Assembly: GCF_030657335.1 (NCBI RefSeq)
Contig: NZ_CP131039.1
Location: 930,001-994,000, forward strand
Direction: 5' to 3'
DNA: 64,000 nucleotides
From: Croceibacterium aestuarii
Lineage (GTDB): Bacteria; Pseudomonadota; Alphaproteobacteria; Sphingomonadales; Sphingomonadaceae
Shown here: piece by piece, positions 47,510 through 55,068 of the stretch
How the letters are laid out: each line of letters opens with the position of its first letter
How positions within the stretch are numbered: position 1 is the stretch's first letter
Notes under the pieces: model-generated
What the model was told of the DNA's origin: nothing
The model's input: the letters and a program-made list of their open reading frames with translations, nothing else
The model's database searches: none
Translations under genes and position numbers: made by a program

Positions 47510-48019
47510 ATGGCTCTTGGACTACGTATCTCGGCGCTCGCCGCGGCCGCGCTGCTGGCCGGCCCGGGCCAGGCCCGCACGGTCGGCGCGTGGGAGGTTT
47601 CGCGCACCGGCCCCGATGCCTGCATGATGAGCGCGCTGTTCGGGTCTGACGGAAACGTCTTCACCCTGGCGCTGCTGTGGCATGCCAGCGAGCGCCGCCT
47701 CGAAGTCCTCGCCGCGGGCAACGACTGGCAGGAGCTGCGCCGGCGCGAAGGCAAGACCGCGGCGCTCGAACTGACCTTCGACGGCCGCGTGCCATATTCC
47801 GAGTGGCTCAGCGAACAGGCCGCCTTCACCGACCTGAGCGGCGGGCTCGACGGGATCGTCGGCGACTGGGGCAGCGAGCACAGCGGCGACCTCGCCAAGG
47901 CGGTCACCGGCTCGAAGAACGTGACGGTGAAGGTCGGCGCCACCGACTTCGGCTCGTTCGACCTGTCGGGGGCCGACGCCGCCTATCGCGAACTGCTGCG
48001 CTGCGGCGAGAGCGCCTGA
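47510..48019 (+). CDS. Small secreted protein of unknown function
   Basis: Exported protein of 169 residues: signal peptide (MALGLRISALAAAALLAG...QA), then a globular domain with Cys in GPDACMMS and LLRCGES near the end, which may be bridged. The pattern VGAWEVSRTGPDACMM...LAL recurs in sphingomonad hypothetical proteins as far as I recall. The start at 47510 has ribosome site GGGGAGAGG. It lies between nrdA and nrdB, but a link to nucleotide metabolism is not implied. Confidence 0.78.
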   Translation: MALGLRISALAAAALLAGPGQARTVGAWEVSRTGPDACMMSALFGSDGNVFTLALLWHASERRLEVLAAGNDWQELRRREGKTAALELTFDGRVPYSEWLSEQAAFTDLSGGLDGIVGDWGSEHSGDLAKAVTGSKNVTVKVGATDFGSFDLSGADAAYRELLRCGESA

Positions 48020-48092
48020 CAAGCTGCTGAGCAAAGCGGCAAATTTTCGGGCGGTGGCGAATTGTTAACCATTGCCGGCTATTCCCGTGCCC

Positions 48093-48434
48093 ATGCCAGC
48101 GCCGATCATCCGCGCCGAAAAGTACCACGGGACCGCCGAGCTCGGCCTGTCGCGCTACCTCGTCATGTACATCGCGCAGATCGGCTGGGTGCTGCTCGGC
48201 GTCTACCTGCTCCGCAACGCCTACTGGCCTTCGACCTGCACGCCCAAGGGCTTTGCCGAGGTCTACGCCTGTTCGATGCGCCTGCCCGAAACCCGCCACT
48301 GGATCGAGGCGGCGCTGCTGACCTGGCTGTGGTCGACCCCGATCCTCGTCGCGCTCGACATCATCCGCCGCTACCGCGCCTGGGCCGAGAAGCGCGCCGA
48401 CAGGGCGCTGCCGATCAAGCCGCGCCGCGACTAG
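48093..48434 (+). CDS. Small membrane protein of unknown function
   Basis: Protein of 113 residues with two membrane helices (about YLVMYIAQIGWVLLGVYLL and WIEAALLTWLWSTPILVAL) and a basic C-terminus (RRYRAWAEKRAD...KPRRD). Two Cys lie in the loop between helices (STCTPKGFAEVYACS), which would be periplasmic if the positive end is inside. An ATG at 48072 is an alternative start. The ribosome site is poor. Confidence 0.7.
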   Translation: MPAPIIRAEKYHGTAELGLSRYLVMYIAQIGWVLLGVYLLRNAYWPSTCTPKGFAEVYACSMRLPETRHWIEAALLTWLWSTPILVALDIIRRYRAWAEKRADRALPIKPRRD

Positions 48435-48444
48435 GCCCGCCGCG

Positions 48445-48654
48445 TCACGCCGGCGGGCGCGGGTCTTCGCCCTTGCCGCCGCGGTCTTCGGAATAGCCTT
48501 CCTGTTTCGCTCCGCTCGCATCGCGGGCGGTCGGCTTGCCTTCTTCGCCCTCGGCGTGGGCTTCCCTGGTCCCGGCGGACGACGCCGGCGGTTGTCCGCC
48601 GCGCTTGCCGATCTGGGCACCCAGCTGCTGCTGTTGGGGCTGGTGATACCACAT
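48445..48654 (-). CDS. Small hydrophilic Gln/Gly/Glu-rich protein
   Basis: A 69-residue, highly polar protein beginning MWYHQPQQQQLGAQ, probably disordered. A GGAG lies about 10 bases upstream of the start. Proteins with this start are, as far as I recall, found as hypotheticals in related genomes, but the evidence here is limited to frame, ribosome site and location. Its function is unknown. Confidence 0.5.
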   Translation of the reverse strand: MWYHQPQQQQLGAQIGKRGGQPPASSAGTREAHAEGEEGKPTARDASGAKQEGYSEDRGGKGEDPRPPA

Positions 48655-48719
48655 CGCGTGCGTGCTCCTTCGGCGGATAGACTCTCATCGCCGCGCCCGG
48701 TTCCGCGCCGCCGTAGCGC

Positions 48720-48914
48720 CTAGCTTCGGCGCTGCTCCGGGCTGCGGGCCGCGCGGTCGAGCGCGCGGCGTGTCGTTGCCTCTTCGTCCTCCTCGTCGCG
48801 CCGCGCCTCGGCGCGCGCCTGGTCCTCGCGCGGGCCGGTGCGCGGCGGCTCGCCGGGGGCCTCGCTCGGCACCTGCGTGACGATGCGGGAATCGTCGGGT
48901 TCGTACTCGCCCAT
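48720..48914 (-). CDS. Small charged protein of unknown function
   Basis: A 64-residue, disordered, charged protein beginning MGEYEPDDSRIVTQ and rich in Arg/Glu. A strong ribosome site (GAGGAGATG spacing) precedes the ATG at 48914. The gene is divergent from nrdB with about 250 bases between starts. A related style of small Arg-rich gene occurs on the minus strand at 55584-55742. Its function is unknown. Confidence 0.6.
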   Translation of the reverse strand: MGEYEPDDSRIVTQVPSEAPGEPPRTGPREDQARAEARRDEEDEEATTRRALDRAARSPEQRRS

Positions 48915-49125
48915 GGTTCATCTCCTCGTTGGGTTTGACGCCCCGGCAACGCCGCATCCGCGCACGCCGTTCCGCGCTTTGCGGCAGGCCGTGCGCCGCG
49001 CGCTCCGTTATCCCCAATCGCGAGCCTTGCCGCGCTTCGCCTCGCCGCCCCGCGGGCATAGCGTGCAAGCCTTGAGTCGCGCGGGCAAAATAGTTCCCGA
49101 CAGCGATTCCCTTATCCCGCCTCCA

Positions 49126-49141
49126 TCGCTATATATGGGGG
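49126..49141 (+). promoter_or_regulatory. NrdR-box-like site upstream of nrdB
   Basis: TCGCTATATATGGGGG matches the CTATATAT core of the NrdR box and ends 23 bases before the nrdB ATG. It may also be part of a -10 region. A matching second box was not found, so this is suggestive only. Confidence 0.4.
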
Positions 49142-49164
49142 CCGACGCGAACCGGAGACACCAG

Positions 49165-50235
49165 ATGCCGCTGCTTGAAGCCCGCAAGACCTACAAGCCC
49201 TTCGAATATCCGTGGGCCTACGAGTTCTGGAAGCGCCAGCAGCAGATCCACTGGATGCCCGAGGAAGTGCCGCTGGGCGAGGATTGCCGCGACTGGGCGC
49301 AGAAGCTTTCCGAGCACGAGCGCAACCTGCTCACCCAGATATTCCGCTTCTTCACCCAGGCCGACATCGACGTGCAGAACTGCTACCACGAGCAGTACGG
49401 CCGGGTGTTCAAGCCGACCGAGATCAAGATGATGCTCGCCGCCTTCTCCAACATGGAGACGGTGCACATCGCCGCCTACAGCCACCTGCTCGACACGATC
49501 GGCATGCCCGAAAGCGAATACGGCATGTTCCTCGAATACGAGGAGATGAAGGACAAGCACGATTACCTGCAGCAGTTCGGCGTCGACAGCGACGAGGACA
49601 TCGCCCGTACGCTGGCCATGTTCGGCGGCTTCACCGAAGGGCTGCAGCTCTTCGCCAGCTTCGCCATGCTGATGAACTTCCCGCGCTTCAACAAGATGAA
49701 GGGCATGGGCCAGATCATCTCGTGGAGCGTGCGCGACGAGAGCCTGCACTGCGAGGGCATCACCCGCCTGTTCCACGCCTTCACCAAGGAACGCGACTGT
49801 CTGACCAAGGCGGTCAAGGAAGACATCATCGACATGTGCCAGAAGACGGTGCGGCTCGAGGATGCCTTCATCGACCTCGCCTTCGAGGCCGGCCCGGTGC
49901 CGGGCATGACGGCCAAGGAAATCAAGAAGTATATCCGCTACATCGCCGACTGGCGGCTCGGCCAGCTCGGCCTGCAGAGCATTTACATGGTCGAGGACCA
50001 CCCCCTCCCCTGGCTCGCCCCGCTGCTCAACGGCGTCGAGCATGCCAACTTCTTCGAAACCCGCGCCACCGAATATTCGAAGGCCGCGACCAAGGGGAAC
50101 TGGAACGACGTCTGGGCCAGCTTCGACAAGCGCCAGAAAGCCAAGGCCGCGAACGAGGAAGAGGCCGAGGACGACGGGCCGGGGTTGTTTGGGGACGGGG
50201 CTACGGGTGAGGCCGGGAGTGTGGCGGCGGAGTAG
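49165..50235 (+). CDS. nrdB: Ribonucleoside-diphosphate reductase beta subunit
   Basis: Diiron, radical-carrying subunit of 356 residues. Iron ligands Glu98 and His101 are in NMETVHIAAYSH, with the radical tyrosine position filled by Tyr105 (four after the His, as Tyr122 in E. coli), and a second pair in RDESLHCEGITRLFH. This makes it tyrosyl-radical class Ia-like rather than the Phe-type class Ic. Start 49165 follows CGGAGAC. It is separated from nrdA by four small genes. The final residues (ATGEAGSVAAE) should carry the peptide that docks into NrdA. Confidence 0.95.
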   Translation: MPLLEARKTYKPFEYPWAYEFWKRQQQIHWMPEEVPLGEDCRDWAQKLSEHERNLLTQIFRFFTQADIDVQNCYHEQYGRVFKPTEIKMMLAAFSNMETVHIAAYSHLLDTIGMPESEYGMFLEYEEMKDKHDYLQQFGVDSDEDIARTLAMFGGFTEGLQLFASFAMLMNFPRFNKMKGMGQIISWSVRDESLHCEGITRLFHAFTKERDCLTKAVKEDIIDMCQKTVRLEDAFIDLAFEAGPVPGMTAKEIKKYIRYIADWRLGQLGLQSIYMVEDHPLPWLAPLLNGVEHANFFETRATEYSKAATKGNWNDVWASFDKRQKAKAANEEEAEDDGPGLFGDGATGEAGSVAAE

Positions 50236-50507
50236 GACAAATTTCAAAGCTTTATTCTGAATGCGAGAAATGCAGTGGATCCGGCATTTGGACACCGCGA
50301 CCGGAAAAACGTCCGGGCGGTGGAATGACGTTACATAGCCCGCGCGACTGCCCAGATTGCGAGGGCATTGGTGCTATTCCGACGACCCAAGGTGTCGCCA
50401 TTCTGGACCTAATCCAGCGCTGGCGCAGAGCGGGGAAGCTGCGCTGAAAGTTGGAACAAAACGGAACATATGCTATTCATTTCATGAACGAATGAGCGAG
50501 TCGCGCT

Positions 50508-51440
50508 ATGTCTGTCAAAGTCTTCATTTCATATTCTCACGCGGATGACGATCTGCTCGACAGGTTGCACAAGCATCTCGCGCAACTGCGCCGCGATGGA
50601 ACGATAATCGCGTGGTATGACCGGGAAATCACGGCTGGACGTCGATTGGACGATACGATTGGCACCGAACTAGAAGATGCTGATATCTTTCTCGCGTGCG
50701 CTAGTCCCGATTGGATCGACTCGAACTATGCATATGAAACGGAATTCAAGCGGGCCCTTGAAAAAGAAATCCAGGGCACAGCGGTCATTGTGCCCGTCAT
50801 CTTCAAGCCGTGCGATTGGCTATCAACACCACTTCAGCAATTCAGAGCTTTGCCGAAGGATGGAAAGCCTATCACTGAATTCACTAATCAAGATGTCGCG
50901 CTTCTGGATGTCGTCACCGGGCTAAGGGCACTCGCCAGACAGCGATCCACGACTGAATATAAGGGTCAAGCCGATGTTGCCCAAGTGGAGCGCCCTGTTT
51001 CTAGATACCGGGTTCAGCGCGAATTTGATGAATTGGACAAACGCGACTTCGTAGAGACCGCGTTCAAGGAAATGTATCGCTTCTTTGAGGCGTCTGTCGC
51101 TGAACTAAATTCGATTGAGGAAATCGAATGTCGTTTGTCGCCACTTGAGAGTGACTACTTCTCCTGCACGGTCATCAATCGAGGTGTGAAAAGAGGATTC
51201 GAAACTGTGCATGTACGCAAAGGCGGAACTTGGGGCGCTATCGATCTCCTCTTCGGCGAGCATAACCAATCTAATACATCAAACGGGGGCTTTAGTGTGG
51301 TAGCCGACAACTACCAGCTAGCCCTTTCGCCATTGATGTTTCAATTCGGCGGCCGCGAGGAAGATGTTTTGAATGCTAGGGACGCGGCCAAGATGGTGTG
51401 GGACAATTTACTTTCAAAAGTTGGCATCGAATATGCCTGA
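50508..51440 (+). CDS. TIR-domain protein with unknown C-terminal domain
   Basis: Protein of 310 residues. The N-terminal TIR domain (about 1-143) starts VFISYSHADDDL, has IAWYDREITAGRRLDD and DADIFLACASPDWIDS, and the YETEFKRAL helix with Glu79 at the place of the NADase catalytic glutamate. Residues about 165-310 form a separate domain rich in Glu and aromatic residues, with no motif I know. Bacterial TIR proteins often degrade NAD or make signalling nucleotides in anti-phage defence. The gene is AT-rich relative to its neighbours and flanked by unrelated housekeeping genes, which suggests acquisition. It overlaps a zinc-ribbon gene by 8 bases. Confidence 0.88.
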   Translation: MSVKVFISYSHADDDLLDRLHKHLAQLRRDGTIIAWYDREITAGRRLDDTIGTELEDADIFLACASPDWIDSNYAYETEFKRALEKEIQGTAVIVPVIFKPCDWLSTPLQQFRALPKDGKPITEFTNQDVALLDVVTGLRALARQRSTTEYKGQADVAQVERPVSRYRVQREFDELDKRDFVETAFKEMYRFFEASVAELNSIEEIECRLSPLESDYFSCTVINRGVKRGFETVHVRKGGTWGAIDLLFGEHNQSNTSNGGFSVVADNYQLALSPLMFQFGGREEDVLNARDAAKMVWDNLLSKVGIEYA

Positions 51441-51591
51441 GCCCGTGGGATTTAGGTGCGATGATTGCGGCTACGGATTCGTGGAAGCCGTCCTTACCGA
51501 TGGTGAGAAGTCCGAACTCAGGCGAACGAACCAAACTTGGTCTTCTCTCCGTTGCCCAAAGTGCGACAGCATTAAGCTCAGCCGAGTTTAG
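51433..51591 (+). CDS. Small zinc-ribbon protein overlapping the TIR gene
   Basis: Protein of 52 residues from ATG 51433, which lies within the last codons of the TIR gene. It has two CxxC knuckles (FRCDDCGYG and LRCPKCDS) 33 residues apart, a zinc-ribbon layout. The overlap and lack of a separate ribosome site suggest translational coupling to the TIR gene. It could be a regulator, sensor or partner of the TIR protein; this is inference. Confidence 0.68.
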   Translation: MPEPVGFRCDDCGYGFVEAVLTDGEKSELRRTNQTWSSLRCPKCDSIKLSRV

Positions 51592-51639
51592 CTGAGGTGA
51601 GATACTGAGGCCCCAAAGAAAGTCCTGGAGTTCGCGGAA

Positions 51640-52134
51640 ATGCGCCTGACCAGCAACGAAATTGATCTTCCGCTCTCAGCTTTCGAGATTACCGAGTTAC
51701 ACAGCAAGAGTAGCGTCTTCGGCCTCTTTCTCCCGTCGCGCTCAAGCGAATACCCTAGCATTGTCGATGGTCTAGATGGGCACCTAATTGTGGTACCACT
51801 TGAAGGGCCAAGAGCCTTCAAGAGGTTTCTTCTCCAGACGGGTGGACGCCTTGAAGGACTACTGTTCCCCGATATCAAATTCGCGGTGAATCTAGCGAGC
51901 CACGCAAATCCCAATTTGGAGGGGCAACGCGGAGACCTCACAATAATTGACGGCAAGGTTCATCTGTCTACCACAGACGCGCGTAACGGCTGGGAAGATG
52001 TTGAACCTTTCCCCCTTCAGTCTCCTCCGAAGCTCGGATCCGATGTCCGAGCTCGGTTCCAACAATGGTCGCTCTTCATTGAACTTGGACGAGTTGAGAT
52101 AGAACTCTGGAAGACTGCGCCCAACTTGGAATGA
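51640..52134 (+). CDS. Hypothetical protein in the TIR island
   Basis: Soluble protein of 164 residues, beta-rich by appearance, with no signal peptide, Cys pair or known motif. It starts MRLTSNEIDLPLSAFEITEL. Its base composition matches the AT-rich TIR gene rather than the neighbouring chromosome. It lies 48 bases after the zinc-ribbon stop, on the same strand, so it may belong to the same unit. No function is proposed. Confidence 0.62.
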   Translation: MRLTSNEIDLPLSAFEITELHSKSSVFGLFLPSRSSEYPSIVDGLDGHLIVVPLEGPRAFKRFLLQTGGRLEGLLFPDIKFAVNLASHANPNLEGQRGDLTIIDGKVHLSTTDARNGWEDVEPFPLQSPPKLGSDVRARFQQWSLFIELGRVEIELWKTAPNLE

Positions 52135-52236
52135 AAGCGAAGTAATCTCACCGCCAATAGTCCGCCCGTTCCGCGCCGTCGAACCGGCCGGAGGTGAGGC
52201 AGGGATTGCGCTAACAGCTTACCAATCCCAGCATGC

Positions 52237-52443
52237 CTAATTGCGCCTCGTGGTAACGAGTTCGCGGTCGCAATCGACACACAACCCTTGGCCGCGAGTG
52301 AAGTCGCTGGTCGTTCCCAACGCCATCGTGACCCGGTTGGCCTGCTGGTGGCGAAGTGCCAGATGGTCGGCAACGCAGCTATCGCATATTTCGTCCGGCC
52401 TGCGCTTCGTGAGGTAGTCGTTCACGCGTTGTGCGATGATCAT
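52237..52443 (-). CDS. Small Cys-rich protein, probable zinc binding
   Basis: Protein of 68 residues with two CxxC motifs (ICDSCVADHL and LCVDCDRE), joined by an alpha-helical Gln/Arg-rich stretch ending in ALGTTSDFTRGQG. I recall this arrangement in short alphaproteobacterial proteins of unknown function. The start at 52443 follows AGGACAGG; an ATG six codons upstream is possible. It lies just downstream of the decayed winged-helix gene on the same strand. Confidence 0.65.
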   Translation of the reverse strand: MIIAQRVNDYLTKRRPDEICDSCVADHLALRHQQANRVTMALGTTSDFTRGQGLCVDCDRELVTTRRN

Positions 52444-52457
52444 CGTCCTGTCCTTCT

Positions 52458-52698
52458 TCAACCCACCAGTCGATACGCGCCGCGATCATCGATGAATTCG
52501 AGTACACCCTTCGCGTAACTAATGCAGTTCGCGGCTCAGCGTCTGTTGGGGCGTCTGACCCTGCGAGCCGGTTTCACTTACGATCCAGTCGAGCTTAGCG
52601 TCGACCAGCTCCTGCCGGGAGAATTCCGCGCTGCCGATGCTGGTGACGTGCTGCCGCACAGCATCTTCGACCACTTCGGACCAATCTCTGCCAGGCAT
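52458..52698 (-). pseudogene. Decayed winged-helix-like gene
   Basis: From ATG 52698 (GGAG nine bases upstream) a sensible 59-residue frame runs MPGRDWSEVVEDAVRQHV ... QTPQQTLSRELH and ends in a TAG at 52519-52521. Past a one-base shift, another frame continues GVLEFIDDRGAYRLVG to a stop at 52458. Together they look like SRELxxLREGVLEF-type winged-helix ends, as in DpnI-like C-terminal domains. A nonsense codon (CAG to TAG) plus a frameshift would explain the break. The small Cys-rich gene begins 15 bases later. Confidence 0.6.
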
Positions 52699-52735
52699 CG
52701 GTTCCATCTCCGTTGAACGCCGCCATCTTGCGGCA

Positions 52736-52924
52736 ATGGCGCAGCGCAGGGAAGAACCCAAAGTGCGGATGGTCTGCGAGGATTGCGGATCGGAGGAAGT
52801 CACTCGGGACGCGTGGGCCGAATGGAACGTCGACATGCAGCACTGGCAACTCGGCGCAGTGTTCGATTACGCCTATTGTCACCGCTGTCAGGCAAATGCT
52901 CACATTGAGGAGCGGCCGATCTAG
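52736..52924 (+). CDS. Small zinc-ribbon-like protein
   Basis: Protein of 62 residues with CEDCGSEEV near the N-terminus and YCHRCQANAH near the end. The middle (RDAWAEWNVDMQHWQLGAVFDYA) is Trp-rich. This resembles sphingomonad hypothetical zinc-ribbon proteins with WAEWD-type cores that I recall. It starts at 52736, divergent from the decayed gene. Its role is unknown; many such proteins sit in plasmid or accessory regions. Confidence 0.65.
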   Translation: MAQRREEPKVRMVCEDCGSEEVTRDAWAEWNVDMQHWQLGAVFDYAYCHRCQANAHIEERPI

Positions 52925-52961
52925 GCTGGTCCGGAAGGCAGCTTTTGCCCGTTACCCTTTT

Positions 52962-53031
52962 CGTCACTCCCGCGTAGGCGGGAGTCCAGGTCCGGCGTCT
53001 CGACTGGATTCCCGCCTTCGCGGGAATGACG
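52962..53031. repeat. Dispersed inverted repeat of the GCGGGAATGAC type
   Basis: The left arm CGTCACTCCCGCGTAGGCGGG...CCAG (52962-52988) is inverted against CTGGATTCCCGCC...AATGACG (53004-53031), each arm itself containing a small CCCGCC...GGCGGG hairpin. It looks like the widely scattered intergenic repeat built on CCCGCxTTCGCGGGAATGA found in many proteobacteria. It sits at the right edge of the AT-rich accessory region, so it may mark an insertion boundary. Confidence 0.8.
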
Positions 53032-53049
53032 AATTGGAGATGCCAAGCC

Positions 53050-53754
53050 CTAGCACCAGTCCCGCCGATACCCGCGCCATTCCTCGGCCAGCCCTTCGGC
53101 GACCAGCGTGCCGCCCAGACTCCGGCCTCCCCGAGTCACGATACGCAGCGCGCGGCCGTACTTGTCGCGCTCGCGCCCCGTTCCGTCGGCGTTCGCTGCG
53201 AGCGTGAACGGGCCGGCGTTGAGCAGGGCCAGGAAGCGCGTCGTCGCCTGCGCGCCGAGCGCGGCTTCGCGCGGGCAGCCGGGCGAACCCACCTCGGGCG
53301 CGTTGATGTCGGCCACGCGGATCTTCTCGCCTGCATACCAGAAGGTGTCGCCGTCGATCACGCAGTTGCCGCCCGCGCGGCCCCTGCCGTTGCACAGCCC
53401 GAAACGCGCTCTCTCGCGGTCCTGCCCCTGCGCGAACCCGGCGGGCGCAGGCGCGCGGGCCGGGGTGAGCTGCGCCAGATCGGGCTGCGCGGCGTCGAGC
53501 TCGGCCGGGCTGGTGTCCCACCCGCGCGGGCGCGGCGCCTCGCCGGTCACCGCCACCGTCACCGCGGGCAGGTCGGTCGGGCCCGCATCGCGCGACGGCC
53601 AGTCCCAGGCGAACACCGCGGTGAACACCGCCAGCGGTAGCATGATCATGATCGGCGAGAAGAGCGAGTGCCCGTCCTCCTTTCGCGGCGCAGCCGCGGG
53701 CGGCGCGTTGGCGACGACGCGCAGCGGAACGGCTTTGAACGGCTTGCGGGCCAT
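53050..53754 (-). CDS. Thermonuclease-family (SNase-like) protein, membrane-anchored
   Basis: Protein of 234 residues. One hydrophobic segment (about FSPIMIMLPLAVFTAVFA) anchors a nuclease domain: CVIDGDTFWYAGEKIRVADINAPEV, then GRERDKYGRALRIV and GGTLVAEGLAEEWRG. The catalytic Asp/Arg/Glu positions of staphylococcal nuclease (D in DGDTF, R in IRVADINAPE, E and R in RDKYGR) are present. The start is given at 53754; MGG at 53763 is possible. Such anchored nucleases are common in sphingomonads. Confidence 0.85.
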   Translation of the reverse strand: MARKPFKAVPLRVVANAPPAAAPRKEDGHSLFSPIMIMLPLAVFTAVFAWDWPSRDAGPTDLPAVTVAVTGEAPRPRGWDTSPAELDAAQPDLAQLTPARAPAPAGFAQGQDRERARFGLCNGRGRAGGNCVIDGDTFWYAGEKIRVADINAPEVGSPGCPREAALGAQATTRFLALLNAGPFTLAANADGTGRERDKYGRALRIVTRGGRSLGGTLVAEGLAEEWRGYRRDWC

Positions 53755-53790
53755 GCCGCCCATTCTGCACGCGCGTCCGTCACCGAACGA

Positions 53791-54201
53791 TTAAGCCCGG
53801 TTCGCGGCTCCCGGTCGGCGCACGGCCCACGGCATCAGCGCAAAGCCGACCTGTCCCGCCAGCCCCAGCAGCCCCGGCGTGCGCCCCAGCCCGGCCAGCC
53901 ACTCTCCGGCCGAGCCGCCCAGCGCCAGCGCCAGCAGCAGTTCGGCCGCCAGCAGCAGCGCGAAGGCCAGCGCGCCCATCGCCAGCGCCTCACGCGCGGC
54001 GGCGATGCCCTCGCGGCGGGTCAGCCAGCGCGCCGCCAGCCAGCTCGCGGCGAGCATGACCGGCAGTTCGAGCAGCACCGCCCCGGTCTCGCCCAGCAGC
54101 GGGGCCAGCAGCAGCACCCGCGCGGTTCCCAGCACGAAGCCGAGCGCGAAGATCGCGGCGAAGTAGAGCGCCGCGGCGCGGGCGATGCGCGGCCATGTCA
54201 T
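53791..54201 (-). CDS. Membrane protein of unknown function
   Basis: Protein of 136 residues, Ala/Leu-rich, with about four hydrophobic segments. It starts MTWPRIARAAALYFAAIFAL. The motif FVLGTARVLLLAPLLGE with a polar Gly/Arg pair in the first loop recurs in small alphaproteobacterial hypotheticals I recall. It lies 37 bases upstream of the thermonuclease gene on the same strand. Its function is unknown. Confidence 0.75.
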   Translation of the reverse strand: MTWPRIARAAALYFAAIFALGFVLGTARVLLLAPLLGETGAVLLELPVMLAASWLAARWLTRREGIAAAREALAMGALAFALLLAAELLLALALGGSAGEWLAGLGRTPGLLGLAGQVGFALMPWAVRRPGAANRA

Positions 54202-54293
54202 CGCGGCGCAGCCTATCACCGCGCGCCGCCTCGCGGGAGGGCGCGCATTTTGCATTTTCCTACACGCCCCGCCTGTGCCTAATACCCTCGGCC

Positions 54294-54755
54294 ATGAAAC
54301 ACTGGCCCACACCTTCGCCTCGCACCGCGCCGCCCACCCGCCGCCGCGTTCCGCTGTTCCATCCCGTGCCCGTCGGCCCGCGCCAGGACGGCTGGACCGT
54401 CCAGCGGCAGGCGTGGTTCATCGGCTGCCTGGCCGAGACCCGCTCGGTGATCGAGGCGTGCCGGCGCGTCGGGATGGGGCGCGAGAGCGCCTACCGGTTG
54501 CGCAAGCGGCCCGGCGCGGCGGGGTTTGCCGCCGCCTGGGACGCGGCGCTGGGAAAGCCGCACCAGAGTGTGGACTTGGCATCGGCGAAGTCCACAGGGC
54601 TCGGCGCGCGCTACCGCTTCGAGGCCGGGCTGATCCGCACGGTCATGGACCGCGGCCGCTATGCCGCAAGTGCCCGGAAAGAGGACGATAATGCCATGCT
54701 GCAGGTCCTCGCGCAGTGCGATCGCGGCGCGCGGCCGGCGGGCGGCGGCGGGTGA
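54294..54755 (+). CDS. Helix-turn-helix protein of unknown function
   Basis: Protein of 153 residues. Residues about 40-80 contain RQAWFIGCLAETRSVIEACRRVGMGRESAYRLRKRPGA, a helix-turn-helix like that of phage terminase small subunits and transposase-like DNA-binding modules. I recall this as a common sphingomonad hypothetical (AFIEALAET...ACRxVGMSxxSAYxLRRRPGA). No other phage gene is nearby. It may be a domesticated DNA-binding protein. The start is at 54294, with no strong ribosome site. Confidence 0.72.
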   Translation: MKHWPTPSPRTAPPTRRRVPLFHPVPVGPRQDGWTVQRQAWFIGCLAETRSVIEACRRVGMGRESAYRLRKRPGAAGFAAAWDAALGKPHQSVDLASAKSTGLGARYRFEAGLIRTVMDRGRYAASARKEDDNAMLQVLAQCDRGARPAGGGG

Positions 54756-54831
54756 AAGCCACACATTTCTCGCACCGCGTTTGCGGTCCATGTCGCGGGG
54801 AGCCTCCCCCGCGCCCGCGCGTTGTCCTGCC

Positions 54832-55068
54832 ATGCCTTCGACCGCGATACGCCGCTATGCCTATCGCCCCGACGCGGCGACGCTCGACGTCGAATTCGTC
54901 GGCGGGCGGACCTACCGCTATCACGCGGTGCCCGAACCGGTCGCGCGCGGGCTCGCCGGGGCGCGCTCGAAGGGCGGTTATTTCAACCGCTACTTGCGCG
55001 ACCGCTATGCTTTCGAGCACCTGCGCGGCGGCTGGGAGGCGCCGGACGAGGAAGCCGATCCGGCCTGA
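54832..55068 (+). CDS. KTSC-domain protein
   Basis: Protein of 78 residues that is nearly all a KTSC domain: TLDVEFVGGRTYRYHAVPEPVA, ARSKGGYFNRYLRDRYAFEHL. The domain is named for the motif around Lys-Thr-Ser-Cys; it occurs alone or with Lys-tRNA synthetases, and its function is unclear. Here the stretch SKGGYFN replaces the usual SKGSYFN variant. The start is at 54832. Confidence 0.85.
   Translation: MPSTAIRRYAYRPDAATLDVEFVGGRTYRYHAVPEPVARGLAGARSKGGYFNRYLRDRYAFEHLRGGWEAPDEEADPA

Follow-up and report, generated by a model that had tools for sequence, protein, structure and literature searches.

The window analyzed here, a stretch of 64,000 nucleotides, spans positions 930001 to 994000 of the single contig of the 3.35-Mb genome of Croceibacterium aestuarii. 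Within it, nrdB is followed by genes for a TIR-domain protein, a small zinc-ribbon protein, and a third protein, in that order (Table 1). The three genes lie in an island with a GC content of 0.50 to 0.54 (500-base windows, 50250 to 52249), against 0.57 to 0.76 in the remaining 500-base windows of the region from 44 to 60 kb. The original prediction had described a base composition unlike that of the flanks, a 52-residue gene with two CxxC motifs starting inside the last codons of the TIR gene, and another gene behind it, and all of these features held up. The ATG of the ribbon gene lies at 51433, and the TIR stop codon is at 51438 to 51440, giving an overlap of 8 nt; the stop codon of the ribbon gene ends at 51591.

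Table 1. Genes of the island behind nrdB (positions within the window)
Feature	Coordinates	Strand	Evidence
TIR-domain protein, ThsB-like with C-terminal domain, 310 aa; predicted NADase or NAD cyclase	50508..51440	+	TIR_2, PADLOC ThsB, Glu79
Zinc-ribbon protein, 52 aa; predicted regulatory or recognition subunit	51433..51591	+	Four Cys, TIR/DUF4062 neighborhood
Third protein, 164 aa; predicted optional sensor or adaptor	51640..52134	+	Profile excluding the window protein, hhalign

The site behind nrdB is variable between relatives and takes up defense genes, as evidenced by a TIR stretch that is missing from six relatives and by an AbiU-like fragment in one of these six. The TIR gene lies behind nrdB in the chromosomes of four genomes (the window, L002, L007, and L034). 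Six relatives that lack this TIR (three from the same genus) do have nrdB, and blastn against them with the stretch from the TIR gene to the third gene came back empty. One of the six, a same-genus relative (L079, 980 to 1486, minus strand), carries a 169-aa open reading frame directly behind nrdB that matches the first 77 AbiU positions (PADLOC, 4.6e-19).

Several minor features surround these genes. A small CxxCxGxG open reading frame sits between nrdB and the TIR gene in both the window (50325 to 50447) and L002 (1202 to 1432); it matches the Anti-TRAP model at 3.6e-7, which is under that model's cut-off. A short stretch just 3' of the third gene, at the island edge (52147 to 52207), is a dispersed repeat, with two matching sites near nrdB in L078 and a single one in L079. 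Also, an open stretch 3' of the TIR and ribbon genes of L002 (2697 to 3173) resembles, by eye, the start of a cytosine DNA methyltransferase. A promoter and terminator scan gave counts close to the shuffled means.

The TIR protein and its relatives

The assignment of a TIR domain with a catalytic-type glutamate was borne out. Pfam TIR_2 matches residues 5 to 110 (2.6e-16), and Glu79, kept in every one of the 13 TIR proteins of alignment A1, aligns with a glutamate of the solved TIR protein 7uxr. The original prediction went astray in calling the C-terminal domain unfamiliar. Despite the lack of a Pfam model for it, this domain belongs to a described family, since it falls inside the PADLOC ThsB1/ThsB profile, which matches residues 4 to 304 of 310 (1.2e-57) and is also matched by all 13 members of A1. 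Judged by sequence, the system in the window is predicted to work like a TIR NADase system. Fold prediction for the TIR protein with one relative scored 41.1, and the third protein alone reached a mean pLDDT of 39.7; both values were too poor for a fold search, and neither the third protein nor the C-terminal domain of the TIR protein yielded a usable fold.

Relatives of the TIR protein are patchily distributed. At 1e-3, they occur in 5 of 98 related genomes, the window's own included, two as full-length proteins and three as the TIR domain only. At 1e-30, they occur in 12 of 397 family genomes and 7 of 385 class genomes, with the own genome in both counts. Among plasmids, 40 records match, 27 of them over 80% or more of the query; 24 of the 40 are predicted to be mobilizable or conjugative, in a collection that consists of plasmids only. 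ParA lies behind the TIR gene in two Methylobacterium-group plasmids. Searches of phage records with the TIR and third genes found little, as did searches of viral contigs with single proteins. Alignment A1 retrieved six relatives from the viral contigs, all in the TIR domain only, and PHROGs gave weak hits only, one for the TIR domain (3.7e-4) and others for the ribbon.

Comparison with described systems brings out partial likenesses to several of them. The TIR protein fits the Thoeris ThsB profile nearly end to end; unlike Thoeris, the window genome is without a SIR2-type ThsA and has two small partner genes instead. A search for ThsA with SIR2_2 gave 0 matches in the own genome, while the control matched in 2 of 14 genomes; STALD and ThsA_Macro also gave 0 matches there, with controls that were silent as well. 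Because a SIR2-type ThsA did not turn up in the genome, the locus is not a standard type I Thoeris system. Cat1, a CRISPR-associated TIR protein, has the TIR domain closest to A1 among solved structures (9mud; 5.8e-14, profile positions 1 to 99), but the match is limited to that domain. Finally, the locus resembles retron type VI in that the same TIR family follows RT_VI-like reverse transcriptases in L009 and L073, which fits one enzyme serving several sensors. No reverse transcriptase was recognized among the open reading frames of the window from 48000 to 55000, as judged by inspection of the list of these frames. In L009 (3019 to 4960) and L073 (2082 to 3957), the reverse transcriptases match PADLOC RT_VI at 1.3e-90 and 1.2e-85, respectively, with a helix-turn-helix gene before them and the TIR gene directly behind.

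Two small partner families and an exchange of enzyme

Linkage was counted over 30 loci with a full-length or nearly full-length TIR protein including the C-terminal domain. These comprise 17 of the 27 plasmid records and 13 genome loci (together, the window, L002, L007 to L018, L020, L021, L030 to L035, L037, L038, and L070 to L075). Duplicates of the same place, the broken L069 and L076, and TIR-domain-only matches were left out; so was L022, which has the coordinates and length of the L076 match and was taken as the same place. Profiles for the ribbon and the third gene were run on all 30 loci, with flanks of 1.5 kb for most genome loci and 3 to 6 kb for the others, and 1.2 kb before the TIR gene in L014. 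The ribbon was found in 11 loci (the window, L002, L007, L008, L012, L016, L020, L030, L033, L034, and L037, with L012 and L016 being near-copies) and the third gene in 7 (the window, L008, L013, L014, L031, L033, and L035). Three loci have both partners (the window, L008, and L033), and 15 have neither.

These counts confirm part of the three-gene coupling that had been proposed. The TIR C-terminal domain does co-occur with the zinc ribbon (11 of 30), and the third gene recurs as well (7 of 30); however, the exact order of TIR gene, ribbon, and third gene recurs in only one other opened locus, that of Sulfitobacter mediterraneus (L008), and differs in L033, where the ribbon lies behind the third gene. 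The original prediction held that a TIR gene standing alone in relatives would speak against the coupling, and such genes account for half of the loci, which in part tells against it. The closest relatives, L002, L007, and L034, have the ribbon and, by profile, lack the third gene.

The sole phylogenetic control for co-occurrence is a tree that includes 24 of the 30 TIR proteins. On this tree, the ribbon label changes 4 times, against a shuffled mean of 8.1, and 2 of 500 shuffles were as low, a clustering to which near-copies in the tree add. The ribbon occurs in both deep halves of the tree, and within the clade of the window, L002, L007, and L034 it is present in 4 of 4 members, behind nrdB in each. 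We regard as strong the conclusion that the TIR-ribbon linkage recurs well beyond the window genome.

The ribbon reading frame is more than a product of chance, as evidenced by its four cysteines, which are kept in 14 of 14 aligned ribbon proteins. In 8 of the 11 ribbon-TIR loci, the ribbon gene overlaps the TIR gene, and in L020 and L037 it starts within 14 nt. Four more loci have strong ribbon matches, namely L065, L066, and, before a DUF4062 gene, L050 and L052. In all 15 opened loci with a strong match, the ribbon therefore has as its neighbor either TIR, in 13 cases (including one remnant), or DUF4062, in 2 cases. This count is biased because eleven of the loci were found by looking next to TIR genes; the ribbons of L050 and L052 came up in loci fetched via the third gene, and the searches would miss more divergent, unlinked ribbons. 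The ribbon lies after the enzyme in most TIR loci and before it in L050, L052, and L065.

Searches with the ribbon itself gave a similar picture. Nine plasmid records matched, 9 of 9 beside a TIR gene: in seven, the match falls on a TIR-annotated gene or abuts one; in another, it immediately precedes a TIR gene; and in the last, it follows the NGR234 remnant. In the 98 relatives, 4 genomes matched at 0.01, of which the two strong ones adjoin a TIR gene; the weak partial matches in G050 and G010 (0.003 and 0.008) were not counted, nor, again, was that in L028. A search of 218 class genomes gave 2 with a match at 1e-6; each match has a TIR gene next to it and was already a member of the profile. 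The remnant on pNGR234a (L066, 3685 to 4159) consists of a TIR C-terminal piece whose end is overlapped by an open ribbon reading frame, and it is separate from the full TIR gene and third gene of the same plasmid (L013). Behind the ribbon of L020, the reverse strand encodes a 282-aa predicted membrane protein with no Pfam match, followed by an open reading frame, cut by the locus end, that by eye resembles a DUF4062 protein.

The third gene, as had been supposed, follows as a genuine linked gene. Its family, of about 150 to 170 aa, is found beside TIR genes, DUF4062 genes, or genes for predicted membrane proteins, and the window copy is a diverged member. The genes behind TIR in NGR234, Sulfitobacter mediterraneus, Bradyrhizobium sp. 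184, G798, and G762 are mutual homologues, and a profile of these five members, without the window protein, finds the window third gene at an E value of 3.1e-5 in a six-frame search of the whole own genome. A nine-member profile, again without the window protein, scores it at 41.3 bits, whereas no decoy among 5,381 (5,000 shuffles and 381 window open reading frames) exceeded 8.0 bits. These two results mark the third reading frame as more than chance, and hhalign of the window protein with the family gives a probability of 94.7. As a query itself, the window gene found little in plasmids and in five relatives besides its own genome.

In 397 family genomes, the third-gene profile matches 16 at 0.1 and 8 at 1e-3. 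Of these eight, three have the gene beside TIR (the window, G798, and G762, the latter two in the profile), two beside DUF4062 and the ribbon (G505, which is L050, and G668, which is L052), and two before a predicted membrane protein (G663, which is L049, and G571, which is L051); the eighth, in G518, is a 28-residue fragment and was not counted. Matches above 1e-3 in family genomes were not counted either, except L035 (G742), which was accepted at 22.2 bits and 5e-5. The 154-aa, 173-aa, and 177-aa candidates near the TIR gene in L037, L012, and L032 were rejected at 1.8, −2.6, and 9.2 bits, respectively (decoy, 8.0). The class sample gave one match in 385 genomes, the window's own. Eight plasmid records matched, of which NGR234, one Sulfitobacter record, one Bradyrhizobium record, and Ensifer were opened; two others were short Rhizobium matches. 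The Ensifer match (L067) is partial (profile positions 51 to 123), with no TIR or ribbon found in 8.2 kb.

Neither the ribbon nor the third protein reached the cut-off of a named family in Pfam, NCBIfam, or PADLOC. For the third family, no model was found in these collections when homologues were checked too, nor did any known effector model fit. Profile comparisons of the third family with the DUF4062 proteins and with the TIR family, and of the TIR family with the DUF4062 proteins, gave no match; against solved structures, the third family hit one chain only, at an E value of 1.7. In L049 (1498 to 2633) and L051 (1423 to 2426), the third-family gene overlaps by 4 nt the start of the membrane-protein gene (217 and 179 aa, respectively; the membrane nature is our reading of the sequence), and no TIR or ribbon match was found within the 3.3 to 3.5 kb around it. 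These two loci are possible sensor-pore pairs.

In L050 and L052, the order is ribbon, DUF4062 gene, and third gene, which is the same set with the enzyme exchanged; the proteins match PF13271 (DUF4062) at 1.9e-21 and 1.9e-18. A 2026 preprint (PMC13174449) reports that DUF4062 is a TIR-like NADase and protects E. coli against phage through abortive infection. Its system, Swarozyc, is a single DUF4062 protein that works without ribbon- or third-gene-like partners and whose auxiliary domain engages the phage portal; the word "zinc" is absent from the main text. The two loci are like Swarozyc in that DUF4062 replaces TIR beside the same ribbon and third-gene families, whereas the enzyme in the window has a TIR_2 domain and no DUF4062 match. 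Full-length DUF4062 relatives on plasmids (L062 to L064) have neither partner by profile in 3 of 3 cases, so the ribbon/third-gene module is not general for DUF4062 either. New here are the two partner families and the swap of one enzyme for another. In the literature searched, no title or abstract opening describes a zinc ribbon that accompanies a TIR or DUF4062 protein; the TIR survey under doi 10.64898/2025.12.03.692087 could describe the system.

Candidate roles of the enzyme and its partners

We propose, with about even confidence, that the three genes form a short operon for abortive infection in which a NADase is gated by exchangeable partners. The TIR protein would be the enzyme: it would assemble once phage infection is sensed, complete its active site around Glu79, and then destroy or cyclize NAD, presumably killing the cell. 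The ribbon would attach to the enzyme and serve as its regulatory or recognition subunit, and the overlap of its start with the TIR gene could couple translation of the two. The third protein may act as a second, optional sensor or adaptor. This proposal is favored by Glu79, the ThsB match, the linkage of both partner families, the DUF4062 exchange, the retron reverse transcriptases before TIR in L009 and L073, and the AbiU-like fragment behind nrdB. It is weighed down by the 15 of 30 TIR loci without partners, the closest relatives without the third gene, the partnerless L062 to L064, and the partner-free Swarozyc.

The presence of the same partners beside two kinds of NADase suggests a common job: sensing, assembly, or restraint. 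Restraint would be the whole task if the ribbon, and perhaps the third protein, were an inhibitor that forms a toxin-antitoxin-like pair with a toxic TIR NADase and holds it back until infection. The overlapping genes, the fixed neighborhood, and the sharing of partners between two NADases are what such a pair would look like; however, the ribbon is missing from 19 of 30 TIR loci and hence is no general antidote, and its place behind the enzyme in most TIR loci gives way to one ahead of it in L050, L052, and L065. We consider this explanation unlikely, and the 19 loci make a trigger-specific subunit more likely than a general antidote.

Rather improbable is an orphan Thoeris ThsB, with the TIR protein making a cyclic ADP-ribose signal for an effector elsewhere or for the third gene product. 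The near full-length ThsB match, shared by 13 of 13 A1 members, would suit this arrangement, but a SIR2_2 protein is absent from the own genome (with a control that matched in 2 of 14 genomes), and the third family fits no known effector model. It is very unlikely that the unit is not antiviral and instead uses its TIR NADase for the maintenance or competition of mobile elements: against the 40 plasmid records with relatives (24 are predicted to be mobilizable or conjugative, in a plasmid-only collection) and the ParA genes after TIR in two Methylobacterium-group plasmids stand the chromosomal copies behind nrdB in the window, L002, L007, and L034 and neighbors of the defense type. Least credible, despite the 15 of 30 TIR loci without both partners, is that the small genes merely share defense islands with the TIR gene by chance, since the ribbon and TIR genes overlap or nearly touch in 10 of the 11 loci that have both, across the two deep branches of the TIR tree, and the same partners occur next to DUF4062.

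Returning to the gated NADase, we put forward more tentatively that the ribbon and third protein may constitute a recognition-and-gating module, not described before, that can be attached to different death enzymes, namely TIR NADases (the window), DUF4062 (Swarozyc-like) NADases (L050 and L052), and, where the third protein occurs by itself, predicted membrane proteins (L049 and L051). Small partner families that recur with both TIR and DUF4062 offer a direct handle on how such enzymes sense infection. The ribbon gene is easily missed in annotation, and surveys of annotated genes may therefore not see it: the PLSDB gene table, which is known to be incomplete, omits the ribbon in L008, L012, and L016, the three opened loci where it overlaps an intact TIR gene. 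On a Methylorubrum extorquens CM4 plasmid (L065, 3989 to 4902), the ribbon is annotated as "zinc ribbon domain-containing protein" and immediately precedes a gene for a 249-aa TIR protein with a different architecture.
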